Part shown: positions 6,001 through 58,398 of the stretch, one piece after another
Position numbering within the stretch: position 1 is the first letter of the stretch
How the letters are laid out: each line of letters opens with the position of its first letter
Assembly: GCA_017467905.1 (NCBI GenBank)
Contig: JAFUKD010000021.1
Span: 1 to 64,000, forward strand
Origin: Phascolarctobacterium sp.
GTDB lineage: Bacteria > Bacillota > Negativicutes > Acidaminococcales > Acidaminococcaceae
DNA length: 64,000 nt
Direction: 5' to 3'
Program-made: the position numbers and the translations under genes
Notes under the pieces: generated by a model
What the model saw: only the letters and a program-made list of their open reading frames with translations
Told to the model about the DNA's origin: nothing
Databases searched by the model: none

Positions 6001-6705
6001 GCGAATGCTAATAAAACAATTGCAGATGTGGACGGCAGAGTAGCAAGCAATACCGAAGCAATTGCGAATGCTAATACAGCAATTGAAGGTTTGGACGGCA
6101 GAGTAGCATCTAATACCGAAGCAATTGCGAATGCTAATAAAACAATTGCAGATGTGGACGGCAGAGTAGCAAGCAATACCGAAGCAATTGCCGCAGAAAC
6201 AACTGCTCGTGAAAAAGCAGACGAAGTATTGGCAGGTGCTATCAATAACAACGCAGAAGCAATCAGTGGCCTCAACCAACGTCTTGGAAAAATGAACGGC
6301 AAGATTAACAAAGTTGGCGCAGGTGCAGCAGCATTGGCAGCTCTCCATCCGCTGGATTATGATCCGGATGATAAGCTGACCTTTGCAGCAGGTGTAGGCA
6401 ACTATGCTGGTGAAAACGCAGCGGCGCTTGGTGCGTTCTATCGTCCTGATGAAAAATTCATGGTAAGCTTAGGCGGTACTATGGGTAATGGTGAAAACAT
6501 GGTTAACTTGGGTGTATCCATTGGCTTGGACGGTGCAAAAGGTACTCCTAAACTGAGCAGAAAAGAATTAGTTGAAAAAGTAAGCACTATGGAAGCTGCA
6601 AACGAAGCTCTTAAATCTGAAAATGAAGCTTTGGCAGCAAGAGTTGCAAGACTTGAAAGAATTGTTGTGGCTTTAACTGAAAAAGAAGAAGCAAACGAAA
6701 AATAA
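3070..6705 (+). CDS. Trimeric autotransporter adhesin (YadA-like), long
   Basis: Surface adhesin of 1211 aa. It begins with an extended signal peptide region (ESPR; MNKIYKVVWSKVKNCYVVVSE), then a hydrophobic signal core ending VSA. The ESPR and the AGAGG at 3058-3062 fix the start at the ATG at 3070 rather than 3031. Downstream are 34-aa coiled-coil repeats (102-bp period, about 3900-4160), YadA head repeats with SIALG/AIALG motifs (about 490-640), a neck motif (RRIVNVANGLTDYEAVNLGQL, about 655), a long stalk with 51-aa and 21-aa repeats, and a YadA anchor (about 1065-1155) almost identical to that of the upstream adhesin. A 57-aa coiled-coil tail with heptads follows the anchor. The near-identical anchors point to duplication or gene conversion. 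Confidence 0.92.
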   Translation: MNKIYKVVWSKVKNCYVVVSELAKNVITGSVKSAKVGTAPMVKGMAMGVLMAFMITGNVSAYDHETVKENYPSNIPVTIPVINKTINVPVGDITEPLNRLNSIVNAIGQSVDDLDDYVITGLDVKYLNGATSVNGNLTVGSTTFQFDENGKITGATTTETFKVDAANGNVTGGTYNGVRIATNADSGAVVGGITLSSLATKTEVSGAITDAVANKVDKATTLAGYGITDAYTQNETNEKFATITRVNEIDTKVATNTTAIATNAGNITTLQGKVGTNTSVIDAIKADYLKEADKTELQGKIDTNTSSITANTSAIDAIEVDYLKKADKTELQGNIDTNTSNITANTSAIDAIEADYLKVADKTELSTAITTEKTRAEGIEAGLRTDVDAIKGDYLKTADKTELETAYKAADTALNTELRDYVDQKTTGIASQVNLAEVQNKTQNIDKDKTVSGTTYFNGNVEVGGNVHFNGIDLNVALIKKIDNNATGDYSIALGTNAVASKNMTVAVGTLSEAKEDCAVAVGSGTKALGQQAVAIGSGSISNGEGSLAIGAADSLDYSVDNGGDGAGSTTASGIGAIALGYGSEANEDGAIALGGDGRGNVSEANGVNSIALGVGAIANNDYSIALGAFSVANEPNVVSVGSGDEDHKDTYQYRRIVNVANGLTDYEAVNLGQLKAYTANAQGLTAQSWVGNDKMTAVNGMTIGTAADLYGSGDLIGANDGDYLIVSQDGVFNDWGNGTNVGTINLSAINRNTQNITAEAGKTYIDGELTVNKGAENQIVNDVNINDLATQVGNNAIKIGEVEQGYKDADAALKAEVVKGYEDADKVLSDRIDSNAAKIDEVETAYKAEDAAVRSEFANADAALKAEVVKGYEDADKTLSDRIASNTTKIDEVETAYKAEDAAIRSEFTNADAALKAEVVKGYEDADKVLSDRIDANAAAIEGLDDRVASNTEAIANANKAIEGLDGRVASNTEAIANANKTIADVDGRVASNTEAIANANTAIEGLDGRVASNTEAIANANKTIADVDGRVASNTEAIAAETTAREKADEVLAGAINNNAEAISGLNQRLGKMNGKINKVGAGAAALAALHPLDYDPDDKLTFAAGVGNYAGENAAALGAFYRPDEKFMVSLGGTMGNGENMVNLGVSIGLDGAKGTPKLSRKELVEKVSTMEAANEALKSENEALAARVARLERIVVALTEKEEANEK
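5497..5880 (+). repeat. 153-bp tandem repeats in adhesin stalk
   Basis: Units of 153 bp (51 aa, ADAALKAEVVKGYEDADK...) begin at about 5497, 5650 and 5803. They encode coiled coil. Confidence 0.85.
5885..6195 (+). repeat. 63-bp tandem repeats in adhesin stalk
   Basis: Five 63-bp units encode 21-aa repeats of two alternating kinds, AIEGLDGRVASNTEAIANAN and TIADVDGRVASNTEAIANAN. This is coiled-coil stalk just before the membrane anchor. Confidence 0.85.
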
Positions 6706-6723
6706 AAATTAAATATGTTTTAG

Positions 6724-6757
6724 TCAATAAGGCGGCTCGTAAGAGTCGCTTTATTGA
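6724..6757 (+). terminator. Hairpin between adhesin and small exported protein
   Basis: A long imperfect stem, TCAATAAGGCGGCTC / GAGTCGCTTTATTGA with a GTAA loop, and no T-tract afterwards. It may weaken read-through or stabilise the adhesin mRNA end; the downstream gene starts only 23 bases later and may be cotranscribed. Confidence 0.5.
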
Positions 6758-53136: not shown

Positions 53137-53165
53137 TTGACAAACTCACGGATTATCTATATAAT
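53137..53165 (+). promoter_or_regulatory. tRNA operon promoter
   Basis: Perfect TTGACA (53137-53142), 17 bp, perfect TATAAT (53160-53165), 40 bases before tRNA-Asn. Confidence 0.92.
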
Positions 53166-53205
53166 AACATTCGTGATGTTGAGCAACGCAAAACATCAAG
53201 GAAAT

Positions 53206-53281
53206 TCCCCGATAGTTCAGCCGGTAGAACGGCGGACTGTTAATCCGTATGTCGTAGGTTCGAGTCCTACTCGGGGAGCCA
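53206..53281 (+). tRNA. tRNA-Asn (GTT)
   Basis: 76 nt with encoded CCA. Acceptor TCCCCGA/TCGGGGA, discriminator G, anticodon loop CTGTTAA giving GTT, T-loop TTCGAGT. First of three tRNAs transcribed from the strong promoter upstream. Confidence 0.97.
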
Positions 53282-53284
53282 CCT

Positions 53285-53359
53285 GGCCGGTTGGTCAAGC
53301 GGTTAAGACACCGCCCTTTCACGGCGGTATCAGGGGTTCGATTCCCCTACCGGTCACCA
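53285..53359 (+). tRNA. tRNA-Glu (TTC)
   Basis: 75 nt with encoded CCA. Acceptor GGCCGGT/ACCGGTC (one G-T pair), anticodon loop CTTTCAC giving TTC, T-arm GGGGTTCGATTCCCC. Three bases after tRNA-Asn. Confidence 0.97.
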
Positions 53360-53361
53360 AT

Positions 53362-53437
53362 GGTCGCTTAGCTCAGCTGGGAGAGCGTCTGCCTTACAAG
53401 CAGAATGTCGGCGGTTCGATCCCGTCAGCGACCACCA
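53362..53437 (+). tRNA. tRNA-Val (TAC)
   Basis: 76 nt with encoded CCA. Acceptor GGTCGCT/AGCGACC, anticodon loop CTTACAA giving TAC, D-arm GCTCAGCTGGGAGAGC. Last of the three tRNAs. Confidence 0.97.
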
Positions 53438-53446
53438 CTGAAATTT

Positions 53447-53477
53447 AGCACTTCAACTTCGGTTGGAGTGCTTTTTG
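53447..53477 (+). terminator. Terminator of tRNA operon
   Basis: AGCACTTCAAC-TTCG-GTTGGAGTGCT with TTTTTG; a UUCG tetraloop. Confidence 0.9.
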
Positions 53478-54185: not shown

Positions 54186-54256
54186 TTTTTATCCGCCCAT
54201 CATAGGTTAGTGTACTTAGTAGTATATCACTTTCTTCATGAATGTGAAATAGAGGC

Positions 54257-54285
54257 TTGCAGAAAATTTTTGGAAAGAATATAAT
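54257..54285 (+). promoter_or_regulatory. Promoter of the 54.3-kb structured RNA
   Basis: TTGCAG (54257-54262), 17 bp, perfect TATAAT (54280-54285). The predicted start (about 54292) coincides with the first base of the RNA's closing stem. Confidence 0.8.
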
Positions 54286-54292
54286 GTCATAG

Positions 54293-54509
54293 TGCAACCC
54301 GGGTCTGTGGTTGAAAGTCGATGCCAGTTGCAGGCGAAACGATCCACGTAAGCAGCATAAAATTTGCTGTGAGCACGGTGCAGCTTAGAAGTAAGTCCTG
54401 CCGCAATAATAAATTTTCGGCGAGAGGGGTAGTAGTGGGGAGCTGAAGCTTAGGAGCGAACCCTCCAGCAGGCGAGTGTGGGGGCGAAGACCAGGTCAGC
54501 CGGGTTGCA
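54293..54509 (+). ncRNA. Candidate structured non-coding RNA (217 nt), possibly raiA-motif
   Basis: No reading frame of note spans this GC-richer segment. Its ends, TGCAACCCGG (54293-54302) and CCGGGTTGCA (54500-54509), form a perfect 10-bp closing stem. Internal stems include AGCAGCA/TTGCTGT near 54350-54370, GCAG/CTGC with CTTA-GAAG-TAAG at 54380-54400, and GCCG/CGGC at 54401-54422. Two related segments, GCAGCTTAGAAGTAAGTCC and GAAGCTTAGGAGCGAACCC, recur internally. It is not tmRNA, SRP RNA, RNase P RNA or a tRNA by their signature sequences. The raiA motif of Firmicutes is a guess from size and nearby hpf/raiA gene (3.4 kb away). Confidence 0.7.
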
Positions 54510-54551: not shown

Positions 54552-54580
54552 TTGCTGTTTAATTTGAATGGGTATATAAT
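54552..54580 (+). promoter_or_regulatory. Promoter of amino-acid ABC operon
   Basis: TTGCTG (54552-54557), 17 bp, TATAAT (54575-54580), 55 bases before the ATG. Confidence 0.7.
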
Positions 54581-54635: not shown

Positions 54636-55406
54636 ATGAAGAAACTTCTTGTTTTGATGATGACCATCATTGCTGCGGTTGCAATGTTGGTTGCAGGTTG
54701 TGGCGGCGGAGAAAAGAAAGCTGCTGAAAAAGTTTTGCGTGTAGGTACAGAGCCTACCTTCGCACCCTTTGAGTTCCAAAAAGAAGGCAGCAGTGAATTT
54801 ACTGGCTTTGATATGGATTTGATTCGTGCCATTGGTAAGCAAGCAGGCTACAAAGTTGAAATTATGAATATGGGCTTTGATGCTCTTATTCCTGCTTTGA
54901 ACGCAGGCAATATTGATGCTGCCATCGCTGGTATGACCATTACCGACGAACGCAAAAATGCTGTAAACTTTTCTGAGCCCTATTACACTTCTGGTTTGAT
55001 TATCATGGTTAACAAGGATAATAATGAAATCAAATCCATTGACGATTTGAAAGGCAAAAAGATTGCTTGCCAAATCGGTACTACTGGTGAAAACAAATCC
55101 AGAACCATTGAAGGTGCTAAGGTTGTTGCTTTCAATACCAATACCGAAGCCGCAATGGAACTGAAAAACAAAGGCGTTGATGCTGTAATCAATGACAGCC
55201 CGGTTGTTGGCTACTACCTGGCACAAGGCGGTAACGAAACTGCTAAGACTGTTGGCGAAGTTATGGAAGCTGAACAATATGGTATTGCCGTTAAAAAAGG
55301 TAACGACAAATTGGTTGGCGAAATCAACAAGGCTATGGCTGAGCTGAAAAAGAATGGCGAATTTGACAAGATTTACAAAACCTGGTTTGGTGAAGTGAAG
55401 AAATAA
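54636..55406 (+). CDS. Amino-acid ABC binding lipoprotein (paralog 1)
   Basis: 256-aa family-3 solute-binding lipoprotein. The lipobox MLVAGC places the lipidated cysteine at about 22. Binding domain motifs are GTEPTFAPFEFQKEGSSEFT, GFDMDLIRAIGKQAGYKVEI and IDAAIAGMTITDERKNAVNFS, which match glutamine/polar amino-acid binders. AAAGGAGATT precedes the ATG. A very similar gene follows directly. Between them is a terminator-like hairpin, so this first copy may be the more abundant. Confidence 0.92.
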   Translation: MKKLLVLMMTIIAAVAMLVAGCGGGEKKAAEKVLRVGTEPTFAPFEFQKEGSSEFTGFDMDLIRAIGKQAGYKVEIMNMGFDALIPALNAGNIDAAIAGMTITDERKNAVNFSEPYYTSGLIIMVNKDNNEIKSIDDLKGKKIACQIGTTGENKSRTIEGAKVVAFNTNTEAAMELKNKGVDAVINDSPVVGYYLAQGGNETAKTVGEVMEAEQYGIAVKKGNDKLVGEINKAMAELKKNGEFDKIYKTWFGEVKK

Positions 55407-55421
55407 TATTCGGTTCTTGAA

Positions 55422-55465
55422 GGAGCACAGTGTGGGTTTAAGACGCTTGTGCTCCGATTTTTATT
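55422..55465 (+). terminator. Terminator-like hairpin between the paralogs
   Basis: GGAGCACA / TGTGCTCC around a long loop, followed by GATTTTTATTTT. Probably partial, since the downstream genes need transcription. Confidence 0.6.
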
Positions 55466-55493
55466 TTGATAGAAAATACGAGGGGGATTATCC

Positions 55494-56261
55494 ATGAAAA
55501 AAATATTAATTCTGATGATGGCGGTTTTGGCTGCTTGCAGTATGCTTTTGGCAGGCTGTGGCGGTGAAGAAAAGAAAGCTTCTGAAAAAGTTTTGCGTGT
55601 AGCAACTGAACCTTCCTTTGCTCCTTTTGAGTTCCAAAAAGAAGGCAGCAAGGAATTTACCGGCTTTGACATTGACCTTATTCGTGCTATCGGTAAGCAG
55701 GCAGGCTACAAGGTAGAAATTCAAAACATGGGCTTTGATGCTCTTATTCCTGCATTGACCAGTGATAATATTGACGTTGCCATCGCTGGTATGAGCATTA
55801 CTGAAGAACGTAAAAAAGTAATTACTTTCTCCGACCCGTACTATACTTCCGGTTTGATTGTAATGGTTGCTAAAGACAATAACGAAATCAAATCCATTGA
55901 CGATTTGAAGGGCAAACGCATTGCCTGCCAAATCGGTACTACCGGCGAAAAGAAATCCAGAAGCATTGAGGGTGCAGTGGTTACTGCTTTCAATACTCAA
56001 AGCGAAGCATCCATGGAATTGAAAAATGGTGGCGCTGATGCTGTAATTAACGACGCTCCGGTTGTTGGCTATTATTTGGCTCAAGGTGGCAGCAAGGTTG
56101 CTAAAACTGTTGGCGAAGTTATGGAAGCTGAAGAATACGGCATTGCTGTAAATAAAAAGAACACTCAACTTGTTCAAGACATCAATAAAGCTATGGCTGA
56201 ACTGAAAAAGAACGGCGAGTTCGACAAAATCTATAAAACCTGGTTTGGTGAAAAGAAATAA
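55494..56261 (+). CDS. Amino-acid ABC binding lipoprotein (paralog 2)
   Basis: 255-aa paralog of the preceding gene; by eye about three quarters of residues are identical. The lipobox MLLAGC is at about 18-22. Most pocket-forming segments match (TEPSFAPFEFQKEGS, NMGFDALIPAL, IAGMSITEERKK, SRSIEGA), with differences scattered on the surface and few in the pocket. The tandem copies probably arose by duplication and may offer two affinities or two substrates to one permease. The permease and ATPase follow. Confidence 0.92.
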   Translation: MKKILILMMAVLAACSMLLAGCGGEEKKASEKVLRVATEPSFAPFEFQKEGSKEFTGFDIDLIRAIGKQAGYKVEIQNMGFDALIPALTSDNIDVAIAGMSITEERKKVITFSDPYYTSGLIVMVAKDNNEIKSIDDLKGKRIACQIGTTGEKKSRSIEGAVVTAFNTQSEASMELKNGGADAVINDAPVVGYYLAQGGSKVAKTVGEVMEAEEYGIAVNKKNTQLVQDINKAMAELKKNGEFDKIYKTWFGEKK

Positions 56262-56326
56262 TCGCTACCATATTTAGAAGTTAGGTAAAAAGCTATTGGT
56301 GTCCCAATGTAGAAGGGATGAAGAGG

Positions 56327-56983
56327 ATGGATTTAAATTTTGATTTGATTGCAAGTTCTTTTCCGCTGCTTTTGGCTGGCGCAGCCATTACTGTGGAAAT
56401 CACTGCTTTAAGTGTAGGCTTTGGTCTGTTGATTGGCTGTATGGTTGGTATTGCACGCTTGTGTAATGTTAAACCCTTGCGCTATTTGGCAAATATATAT
56501 GTAGATTTTATTCGTGGCACCCCTTTGCTGGTACAAATCTTTTTGGTTTATTTTGCGTTGCCCGGTATTACCGGTAGCCGTGTAGACCCTTTTTTTGCAG
56601 CAATCTCTGCTTGCTCTATTAACTCCGGTGCGTACATTGCAGAAATTTTCCGTGCAGGTATTCAATCCATTGATAAAGGGCAAATGGAAGCAGGTCGTAG
56701 CTTGGGTATGAGCTGGGCGCAAACTATGCGTTACATTATAATGCCTCAGGCTTTCAAACGCATTATCCCGCCCTTGGGTAATGAGTTTATTGCCATGTTG
56801 AAGGATTCTTCCCTGGTTTCCGTTATCGGTTTTGAAGAACTAACCCGCCGCGGACAGCTTATTATTGCCCGTACCTATGCATCCTTTGAAATTTGGATGT
56901 GTGTTGCTCTGATTTACCTGGTAATGGTATTTATGGTTGCAAGACTGGTTGCTATGCTTGAAAGGAAGTTTGATACGAAATGA
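56327..56983 (+). CDS. Amino-acid ABC transporter permease
   Basis: 218-aa GlnP/HisQ-type permease with five helices. Diagnostic segments are [36 protein letters not shown] and the EAA loop [20 protein letters not shown]. The ATG at 56327 is preferred; the ATG at 56318 abuts the AGAAGGG ribosome site. The stop overlaps the ATPase start by four bases (ATGA). A single permease gene suggests a homodimeric channel. Confidence 0.94.
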
Positions 56984-57711
56984 CAAAGGAAATGATTAAA
57001 GTAACAAACCTGCAAAAAAGCTTCGGCAACTTGCACGTTTTAAAAGGCGTAAACCTTACCATTACAGAAAAAGAAGTAGTGGTTATCATTGGTCCTTCCG
57101 GTAGCGGCAAGAGTACCTTGCTCCGTTGTATGAACTATCTGGAAGAACCAACTGGTGGCAGCGTTGTTATTGATGGTATTCCCCTGACCAATGATGCTAA
57201 TATTAACGAGGTGCGCAAGGAAGTTGGAATGGTGTTCCAACGTTTTAACTTGTTCCCTCACATGACTGTACTGGAAAATTTGATGCTTGCACCCATGAAG
57301 GTGCGTGGCATTATAAAAAGTGAAGCAGAGGCTACTGCGAAAATGTACTTGGAAAAGGTTGGCTTGGCTGATAAGGCGAATACCTATCCCGAACAGCTTA
57401 GTGGCGGTCAACAGCAGCGTGTTGCCATTGCCCGCGCTTTGTGTATGAAACCTAAGGCTTTACTTTTTGACGAACCAACTTCCGCACTGGATCCGGAAAT
57501 GATTAACGAAGTTTTGGACGTTATGAAGAGCTTGGCTCATGAGGGTATGACTATGGCTGTTGTTACTCACGAAATGGGCTTTGCCCGTGAAGTAGGTGAC
57601 CGTGTTGTTTTTGTAGATGGCGGTGTAATTTTGGAAGAAGGTACTCCTGATGACATTTTCTTCCACGCTAAAGAAGAAAGAACCAGAAGCTTCCTTTCTA
57701 AAATTCTCTAA
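56980..57711 (+). CDS. Amino-acid ABC transporter ATPase (GlnQ-like)
   Basis: 243-aa ATPase with Walker [11 protein letters not shown]-loop [10 protein letters not shown], signature LSGGQQQR, Walker [13 protein letters not shown] and H-loop VTHEMGFA. It is the last gene of the four-gene operon and overlaps the permease by four bases. The family carries polar amino acids; with two binding proteins feeding it, the system may serve more than one substrate. Confidence 0.96.
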
Positions 57712-57864: not shown

Positions 57865-58398
57865 ATGAGTATTAATGTAAAAGGCAGAAACGTTGATGTA
57901 ACTCCGGCAATGAAAGATTATGTTGAAAAGAAGATTGCCAAAATCACCAAACAGTTCAAAGCAGTAGATGACATTACCGCAGTGCTGAAAATTGAGCACG
58001 GTTATCATATCGCTGAAATTACTGTTCCCGCAAGTGGTATCTTGCTGAGAGCTCAAGAATCTACTAAAGATATGTATTCTTCCATTGATTTGGTTGTAGA
58101 AAAAATCGAACGTCAAATTCACAAATATAAAACTCGCCTGATGAAGAGAAAATATGCTAACTTTGCAGAAGCTCCTGTATCCGCTCCAGTACCTGCTGCT
58201 GAAGATGATGGCGAATTTGAAATCATTAAGAGTAAAAAGTTTACCCTGCGTCCTATGAATGTAGAGGAAGCAATTTTACAAATGAACCTTTTGAATCATG
58301 ACTTCTTCGTATTCTATGACCCTGAACTTGACGGCGTGAATGTTGTTTATCGACGTAAAGATGGTAAGTATGGTCTGCTCTCTCCCGAATTAAAATAG
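57865..58398 (+). CDS. hpf: Ribosome hibernation promoting factor, long form
   Basis: 177-aa long HPF that pairs ribosomes into inactive 100S dimers in stationary phase. The N-terminal S30AE domain (1-100) begins SINVKGRNVDVTPAMKDYVEKKI; the C-terminal dimerisation domain (about 122-177) has KSKKFTLRPMNVEEAILQMNLLNHDFFVFYD. A linker with APVSAPVPAAEDD joins them. AAGGAGGTAAGATCT precedes the ATG. The gene lies upstream of secA and prfB, the usual Firmicutes order (hpf-secA-prfB). Confidence 0.97.
   Translation: MSINVKGRNVDVTPAMKDYVEKKIAKITKQFKAVDDITAVLKIEHGYHIAEITVPASGILLRAQESTKDMYSSIDLVVEKIERQIHKYKTRLMKRKYANFAEAPVSAPVPAAEDDGEFEIIKSKKFTLRPMNVEEAILQMNLLNHDFFVFYDPELDGVNVVYRRKDGKYGLLSPELK

Follow-up and report, generated by a model that had tools for sequence, protein, structure and literature searches.

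raiA RNA is an abundant bacterial noncoding RNA that occurs in more than 2,500 species and for which structures have been solved, and we know of no mechanism for it. The Clostridium acetobutylicum copy folds into helices P1-P8 and a 7-bp pseudoknot, pk-1 (PMC11751092), and the cryo-EM structures are monomeric (PMC11751092, PMC12286853). The clostridial RNA has one sigma-A start and in C. difficile, where it is called ModT, there is a short form of 215 nt, two 3' isoforms are made, and deletion raises c-di-GMP and lowers sporulation (PMC11706538). The neighbourhood of comFC and raiA(hpf) is common for this RNA but not obligatory (PMC11706538), and genes for periplasmic binding proteins have been noted downstream of it earlier (PMC11477304).

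Here we describe a raiA RNA locus of Phascolarctobacterium sp. (Negativicutes; Acidaminococcaceae), contained in a 64,000-nt stretch of contig JAFUKD010000021.1 which we refer to as the window (Table 1). The locus shares with described raiA RNA/ModT the full-length match to the Rfam model RF03072, the elements P1, P3, pk-1 and P4-P8 with the invariant single-stranded positions, a predicted sigma-A-type promoter at the 5' end, and hpf(raiA) and secA downstream in the wider neighbourhood. C. difficile ModT likewise has its own sigma-A promoter, and its short form is of similar length. It differs in having a divergent HD-GYP gene upstream with comFC behind it or absent, in the amino-acid transporter operon that lies between the RNA and hpf, and in a host without Spo0A and GGDEF, unlike C. 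difficile with its link to sporulation and c-di-GMP. The fold class and the 7-bp pk-1 (AGUUGCA/UGCAGCU in the window) are those of the C. acetobutylicum RNA; sequence and host differ, and the solved structure is that of the clostridial copy.

Table 1 Features of the raiA RNA locus, in window positions
Feature	Position	Strand	Basis or remarks
Divergent HD-GYP domain gene, 208 aa	53559..54185	-	PF13487, 135 bits; only HD_5 gene of the genome
Likely HD-GYP gene promoter, TTCACA-N16-TATACT, extended -10	54221..54248	-	Scan
Predicted RNA promoter, sigma-A-type, TTGCAG-N17-TATAAT	54257..54285	+	Sequence; conserved in relatives
P1 helix, 5' strand	54293..54302	+	Perfect inverted repeat; strong covariation in 41 sequences
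Full-length raiA RNA (ModT), bounded by the P1 closing helix	54294..54508	+	cmscan, RF03072; single copy
pk-1 pseudoknot, 5' strand AGUUGCA, in P3 loop	54326..54332	+	7 bp with 54379-54385
pk-1 pseudoknot, 3' strand UGCAGCU	54379..54385	+	Pairs with 54326..54332
P1 helix, 3' strand	54500..54509	+	Perfect inverted repeat; strong covariation in 41 sequences
Predicted downstream transporter promoter, TTGCTG-N17-TATAAT	54552..54580	+	Sequence; kept in four genus members
Polar amino-acid ABC transporter operon, between RNA and hpf	54636..57711	+	PF00497, PF00497, PF00528, PF00005
hpf/raiA ribosome hibernation factor gene, namesake of the RNA	57865..58398	+	PF02482 and PF16321

Identification and structure of the RNA

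Scanning the window with cmscan against all 4227 Rfam families, with the gathering scores as cut-off, gave four matches, three of them tRNAs and the fourth a raiA RNA which spans model positions 1-209 and scores 202.4 bits against a gathering score of 101.3 (E 4.3e-52). A sequence-only reading had described this segment as a structured RNA with raiA as one possible identity and had found the signatures of tmRNA, SRP RNA, RNase P and tRNA to be missing, both of which agree with the scan, as raiA is the sole family at 54294-54508 and 6S, ROOL or any other of the 4227 families scanned is absent there. The segment is a raiA RNA, a known class, and its identity is settled. The perfect 10-bp closing stem reported in the same reading is present as an exact inverted repeat, the several internal stems correspond to helices that are kept and covary across relatives, and the segment holds no gene, in that no ORF of at least 50 aa occurs inside 54293-54509. 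The genome has this one copy, and raiA RNA scored above the cut-off in 52 of 61 genomes (this one and relatives) and in 38 of the 39 genomes of the family that are at least 90% complete.

Covariation was assessed in 41 sequences from the family and the class with P1, P3-P8 and pk-1 written out and P2 outside the tested structure. Standard pairs were found in 97.2% of cells compared with 31-45% in slid controls, a percentage which is favoured by our mapping of the helices, made on the window sequence with the Rfam line and the published description as guides, an effect that does not extend to the compensatory counts. Compensatory cells numbered 268, whereas shuffles gave 83 +/- 9 and the slid controls 25-46, and 26 pairs had changes on both sides. 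In pk-1, where seven pairs join the P3 loop to the pk-loop, 99% of cells were paired and two pairs were doubly changed. The raiA RNA structure at this locus, including the 7-bp pseudoknot, is supported by covariation. Two related internal segments had also been noticed from the sequence and are indeed 70% identical over 27 nt (54379-54405 and 54444-54470); we rejected them as a meaningful duplication because both belong to the normal raiA fold, one as the pk-1 strand with its junction and the other as the P7-P8 arm.

Variant and missing raiA RNAs in relatives

Outside the family a number of divergent forms were seen. Two further families of the phylum have raiA-like RNAs of 113-120 nt (L107-L111, 1501-1613; L112, 1501-1619; L113, 1501-1620) which keep the promoter, P1, P3 and a seemingly shortened pk-1, while P5-P8 have given way to a single small hairpin whose paired positions vary together. 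They score 42-59 bits, below the Rfam cut-off, are followed by the same zinc-ribbon gene, and are possibly an undescribed minimal form of raiA RNA. A 105-nt raiA RNA in a 95% complete Negativicutes genome (L081:9507-9611) has lost the P3/pk-1 region and kept the 3' part, an internal deletion that may be genuine or may stem from faulty assembly. The same sequence has a match resembling the cspA thermoregulator (6376-6757, minus strand; 66 bits with a cut-off of 78) over a cold-shock gene near hpf. Under stricter filters a raiA RNA match was absent from G051, G202, G227, G251, G275 and G297, all at least 99% complete members of Negativicutes family f15, which suggests loss of the RNA in that family.

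Promoter and transcript boundaries

The predicted RNA promoter consists of TTGCAG (54257-54262) and TATAAT (54280-54285) with a 17-nt spacer. It ends 7-8 nt upstream of the stem and would place the start at about 54292-54293, at the stem itself, in agreement with what had been proposed from the sequence alone. A TTGC-type -35 box together with a properly spaced -10 box lies in the final 60 nt upstream at 48 of 65 raiA loci, against 2.4% of shuffled upstream regions, and the loci without a TTGC-type -35 mostly have another TTG-type promoter; this conservation backs the earlier claim that the RNA has its own promoter, and from it we infer that the promoter functions. A scan detected no intrinsic terminator directly after the closing stem or between the RNA and 54636. 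The predicted promoter of the downstream transporter retains its -35 TTGC and TATAAT in the four genus members. The description of the segment as a stand-alone RNA therefore gains from its conserved promoter and from the separate downstream promoter and loses from the missing terminator, so that a stand-alone transcript of ~217 nt appears supported, not proven.

Gene neighbourhood

The order at the locus is HD-GYP (minus strand), raiA RNA, two substrate-binding proteins, a permease, an ATPase, hpf(raiA), secA and prfB, with hpf 3.4 kb downstream of the RNA and not adjacent to it. The gene order of the transporter operon is the same in most relatives, and the tandem duplication of the substrate-binding protein gene (54636-56261) recurs in most of them. 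Across the family a substrate-binding protein gene follows the RNA in 38 of 43 genomes, while hpf is in the neighbourhood in 34 of 39 and yhcH in 9 of 39; comFC is absent within 2.5 kb of the RNA here and present in 7 of 40 relatives. Outside the family, Negativicutes loci usually carry a zinc-ribbon gene immediately after the RNA, with the transporter behind it. Elsewhere in the window a tRNA-Asn, tRNA-Glu and tRNA-Val cluster (53137-53472) starts with a promoter that matches the consensus exactly, TTGACA-N17-TATAAT (53137-53165), and ends in a good terminator (53447-53472).

The divergent HD-GYP gene

The predicted promoters of the HD-GYP gene and the RNA are arranged back to back, and the block GTATATCACTTT is conserved in the relatives displayed. 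A divergent HD-GYP gene lies no more than about 400 nt from the RNA in all 45 testable family genomes, meaning those in which the upstream side of the RNA is readable. It is a more constant neighbour than hpf(raiA) (45/45 versus 34/39), and in G018 and G034 it is the only marker gene that stays beside the RNA. Two apparent exceptions were discarded, since both are contig ends, 154 nt upstream of the RNA in G067 and some 190 nt beyond the match to the HD domain in G028. The pairing is specific to the family. None of 19 loci from Negativicutes outside it had an HD-GYP gene next to the RNA (in one of them an HD gene lies at a distance of 3 kb), and none was found beside the RNA in the short flanks searched from other families of the phylum. 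The HD-GYP protein thus cannot, as far as gene order goes, be a general partner of raiA RNA. No paper naming both 'raiA motif' and 'HD-GYP' was found in a search whose coverage ends short of the main synteny study (Soares 2024).

The best named relatives found with the protein are Phascolarctobacterium MAGs, in keeping with a host in the Acidaminococcaceae. Its gene is under strong purifying selection, with dN/dS of 0.008-0.12 for measurable pairs, one further pair being without an amino-acid difference and one saturated. Like HD-GYP phosphodiesterases the protein belongs to the HD fold family and has the HD and HHExxDGxGYP motifs with the metal-binding His and Asp residues, and its closest PDB sequence is 5z7c, a 3'3'-cGAMP phosphodiesterase. 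It differs from them as a stand-alone protein of 208 aa without a sensor or receiver domain. The ligands H37, H69, D70, H98, H122 and H123 are invariant in the 45 proteins and GYP is mostly kept. In typical HD-GYP enzymes the Lys after HDIG and the last metal-ligand Asp matter; here the Lys is kept in 2 of 45 and lost in 43, and the Asp is replaced by Asn in 28 of 45. As the window protein itself has Gln at 73 and Asn at 151 we make no claim of an active c-di-GMP phosphodiesterase, and these losses, taken with conservation and selection, suggest a protein for which c-di-GMP is not a necessary substrate.

Cyclic dinucleotides and sporulation

Domains were counted in the 39 family genomes that are at least 90% complete. 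GGDEF, the c-di-GMP synthase domain, is absent from 23 of them, the host included, and GGDEF proteins occur in the other 16; absence of a synthase refers here to GGDEF domains and not to other cyclic-dinucleotide synthases such as CD-NTases, and while MAGs may miss genes the absence recurs in near-complete genomes of several genera. In 22 of the 23 GGDEF-less genomes the HD-GYP gene is the sole HD_5 gene (this includes G028, where adjacency to the RNA is unreadable at the contig end). Extra HD_5 genes occur in 1 of 23 GGDEF-less and 9 of 16 GGDEF genomes (Fisher p = 0.0004), counts that come from related genomes and are not independent events. Spo0A was found in none of the 39 genomes. The core of the raiA RNA is unchanged in the family despite the missing Spo0A and the mostly missing GGDEF. 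We also considered c-di-AMP, which may still be a substrate of the HD protein, and did not adopt it. A diadenylate cyclase domain is encoded in the genome and the PgpH 7TM-HD domain is lacking, but because there is a DHH protein that is GdpP-like by architecture (L130, 692 aa) no enzyme gap points to the HD protein.

Discussion

We give a probability of roughly 0.88 to the reading that the segment is a raiA RNA gene, transcribed separately and acting in trans. That it is a chance intergenic structure or a decayed gene could draw on the unremarkable folding energy (MFE z = -1.3), which is not significant and was excluded as evidence; the significance of the segment comes from the covariance-model E-value of 4e-52, the covariation and the promoter, and with raiA RNA kept across the class this explanation is refuted, its probability being negligible. 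A riboswitch-like element that acts in cis at the 5' end of the operon for the amino-acid transporter (and hpf) fits the Rfam type label of RF03072 (Cis-reg; riboswitch), the substrate-binding protein gene that comes next in most family genomes, the zinc-ribbon and transporter genes directly 3' of the RNA in other families and the failure to find a clear terminator ahead of the transporter gene. The transporter of the genus however has its own predicted promoter and the RNA is kept without an adjoining transporter in G009, G018, G022, G024 and G034, both of which weaken such a leader; the stem closes fully with no alternative expression platform seen, and the RNA has been complemented in trans in C. 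difficile, as is also reported for C. acetobutylicum (PMC11706538). We consider the cis element very unlikely. For the trans-acting RNA gene, the sigma-A promoter would give a short RNA of about 217 nt with the compact raiA fold. By analogy with published work in other species we infer that this RNA would act in trans here, being stable, probably protein-bound and an aid to changes of growth state as in Clostridium.

In the Acidaminococcaceae the most likely working partner or regulatory target of the RNA would be the divergently encoded HD-GYP protein, which, given the genomes without GGDEF, would probably not serve c-di-GMP in most members; we advance this tentatively, at rather less than even odds. 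Should the RNA instead lower c-di-GMP by way of this protein, as a c-di-GMP phosphodiesterase, the HD-GYP family motifs, the raised c-di-GMP of delta-modT C. difficile (PMC11706538) and the GGDEF proteins of 16 family genomes would be accounted for, while the 23 genomes without the domain, this one among them, and the frequent loss of the Lys and the last metal Asp would not, and we think this unlikely. An equally serious rival, which concerns the partner step alone and to which we give an even chance, is that the pair is kept by interlocked promoters with no functional link. Divergent pairs with short gaps tend to persist and can, where they share a short promoter region, do so without functional coupling, about 8 bp separate the two predicted -35 boxes within a conserved block, and the association is limited to one family. 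Against this, the gap is 220-400 nt in many g13 and g14 genomes, leaving room to separate the promoters, and the pair is still kept; the flanking genes on either outer side of the RNA-HD pair have been exchanged; and because GGDEF-less genomes retain the HD gene as their one HD_5 gene, it is itself required for something.

Our proposal of a single functional unit in the Acidaminococcaceae, made up of raiA RNA and the divergently encoded HD-GYP protein and independent of c-di-GMP and sporulation, is thus possible and short of probable. In such a unit the protein may bind, process or be controlled by the RNA, or it may turn over a nucleotide that the RNA senses. Because the family keeps the RNA without Spo0A and mostly without GGDEF, the clostridial phenotypes are probably downstream effects; neither sporulation nor c-di-GMP is probably the core function of raiA RNA in this family, with the shared role probably upstream of the two. 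The family context offers a concrete lead on raiA RNA function, with one named candidate partner in genomes of about 1.8 Mb that have few alternatives and, if true, the unit of RNA and HD-GYP protein would expose the core activity of raiA RNA.
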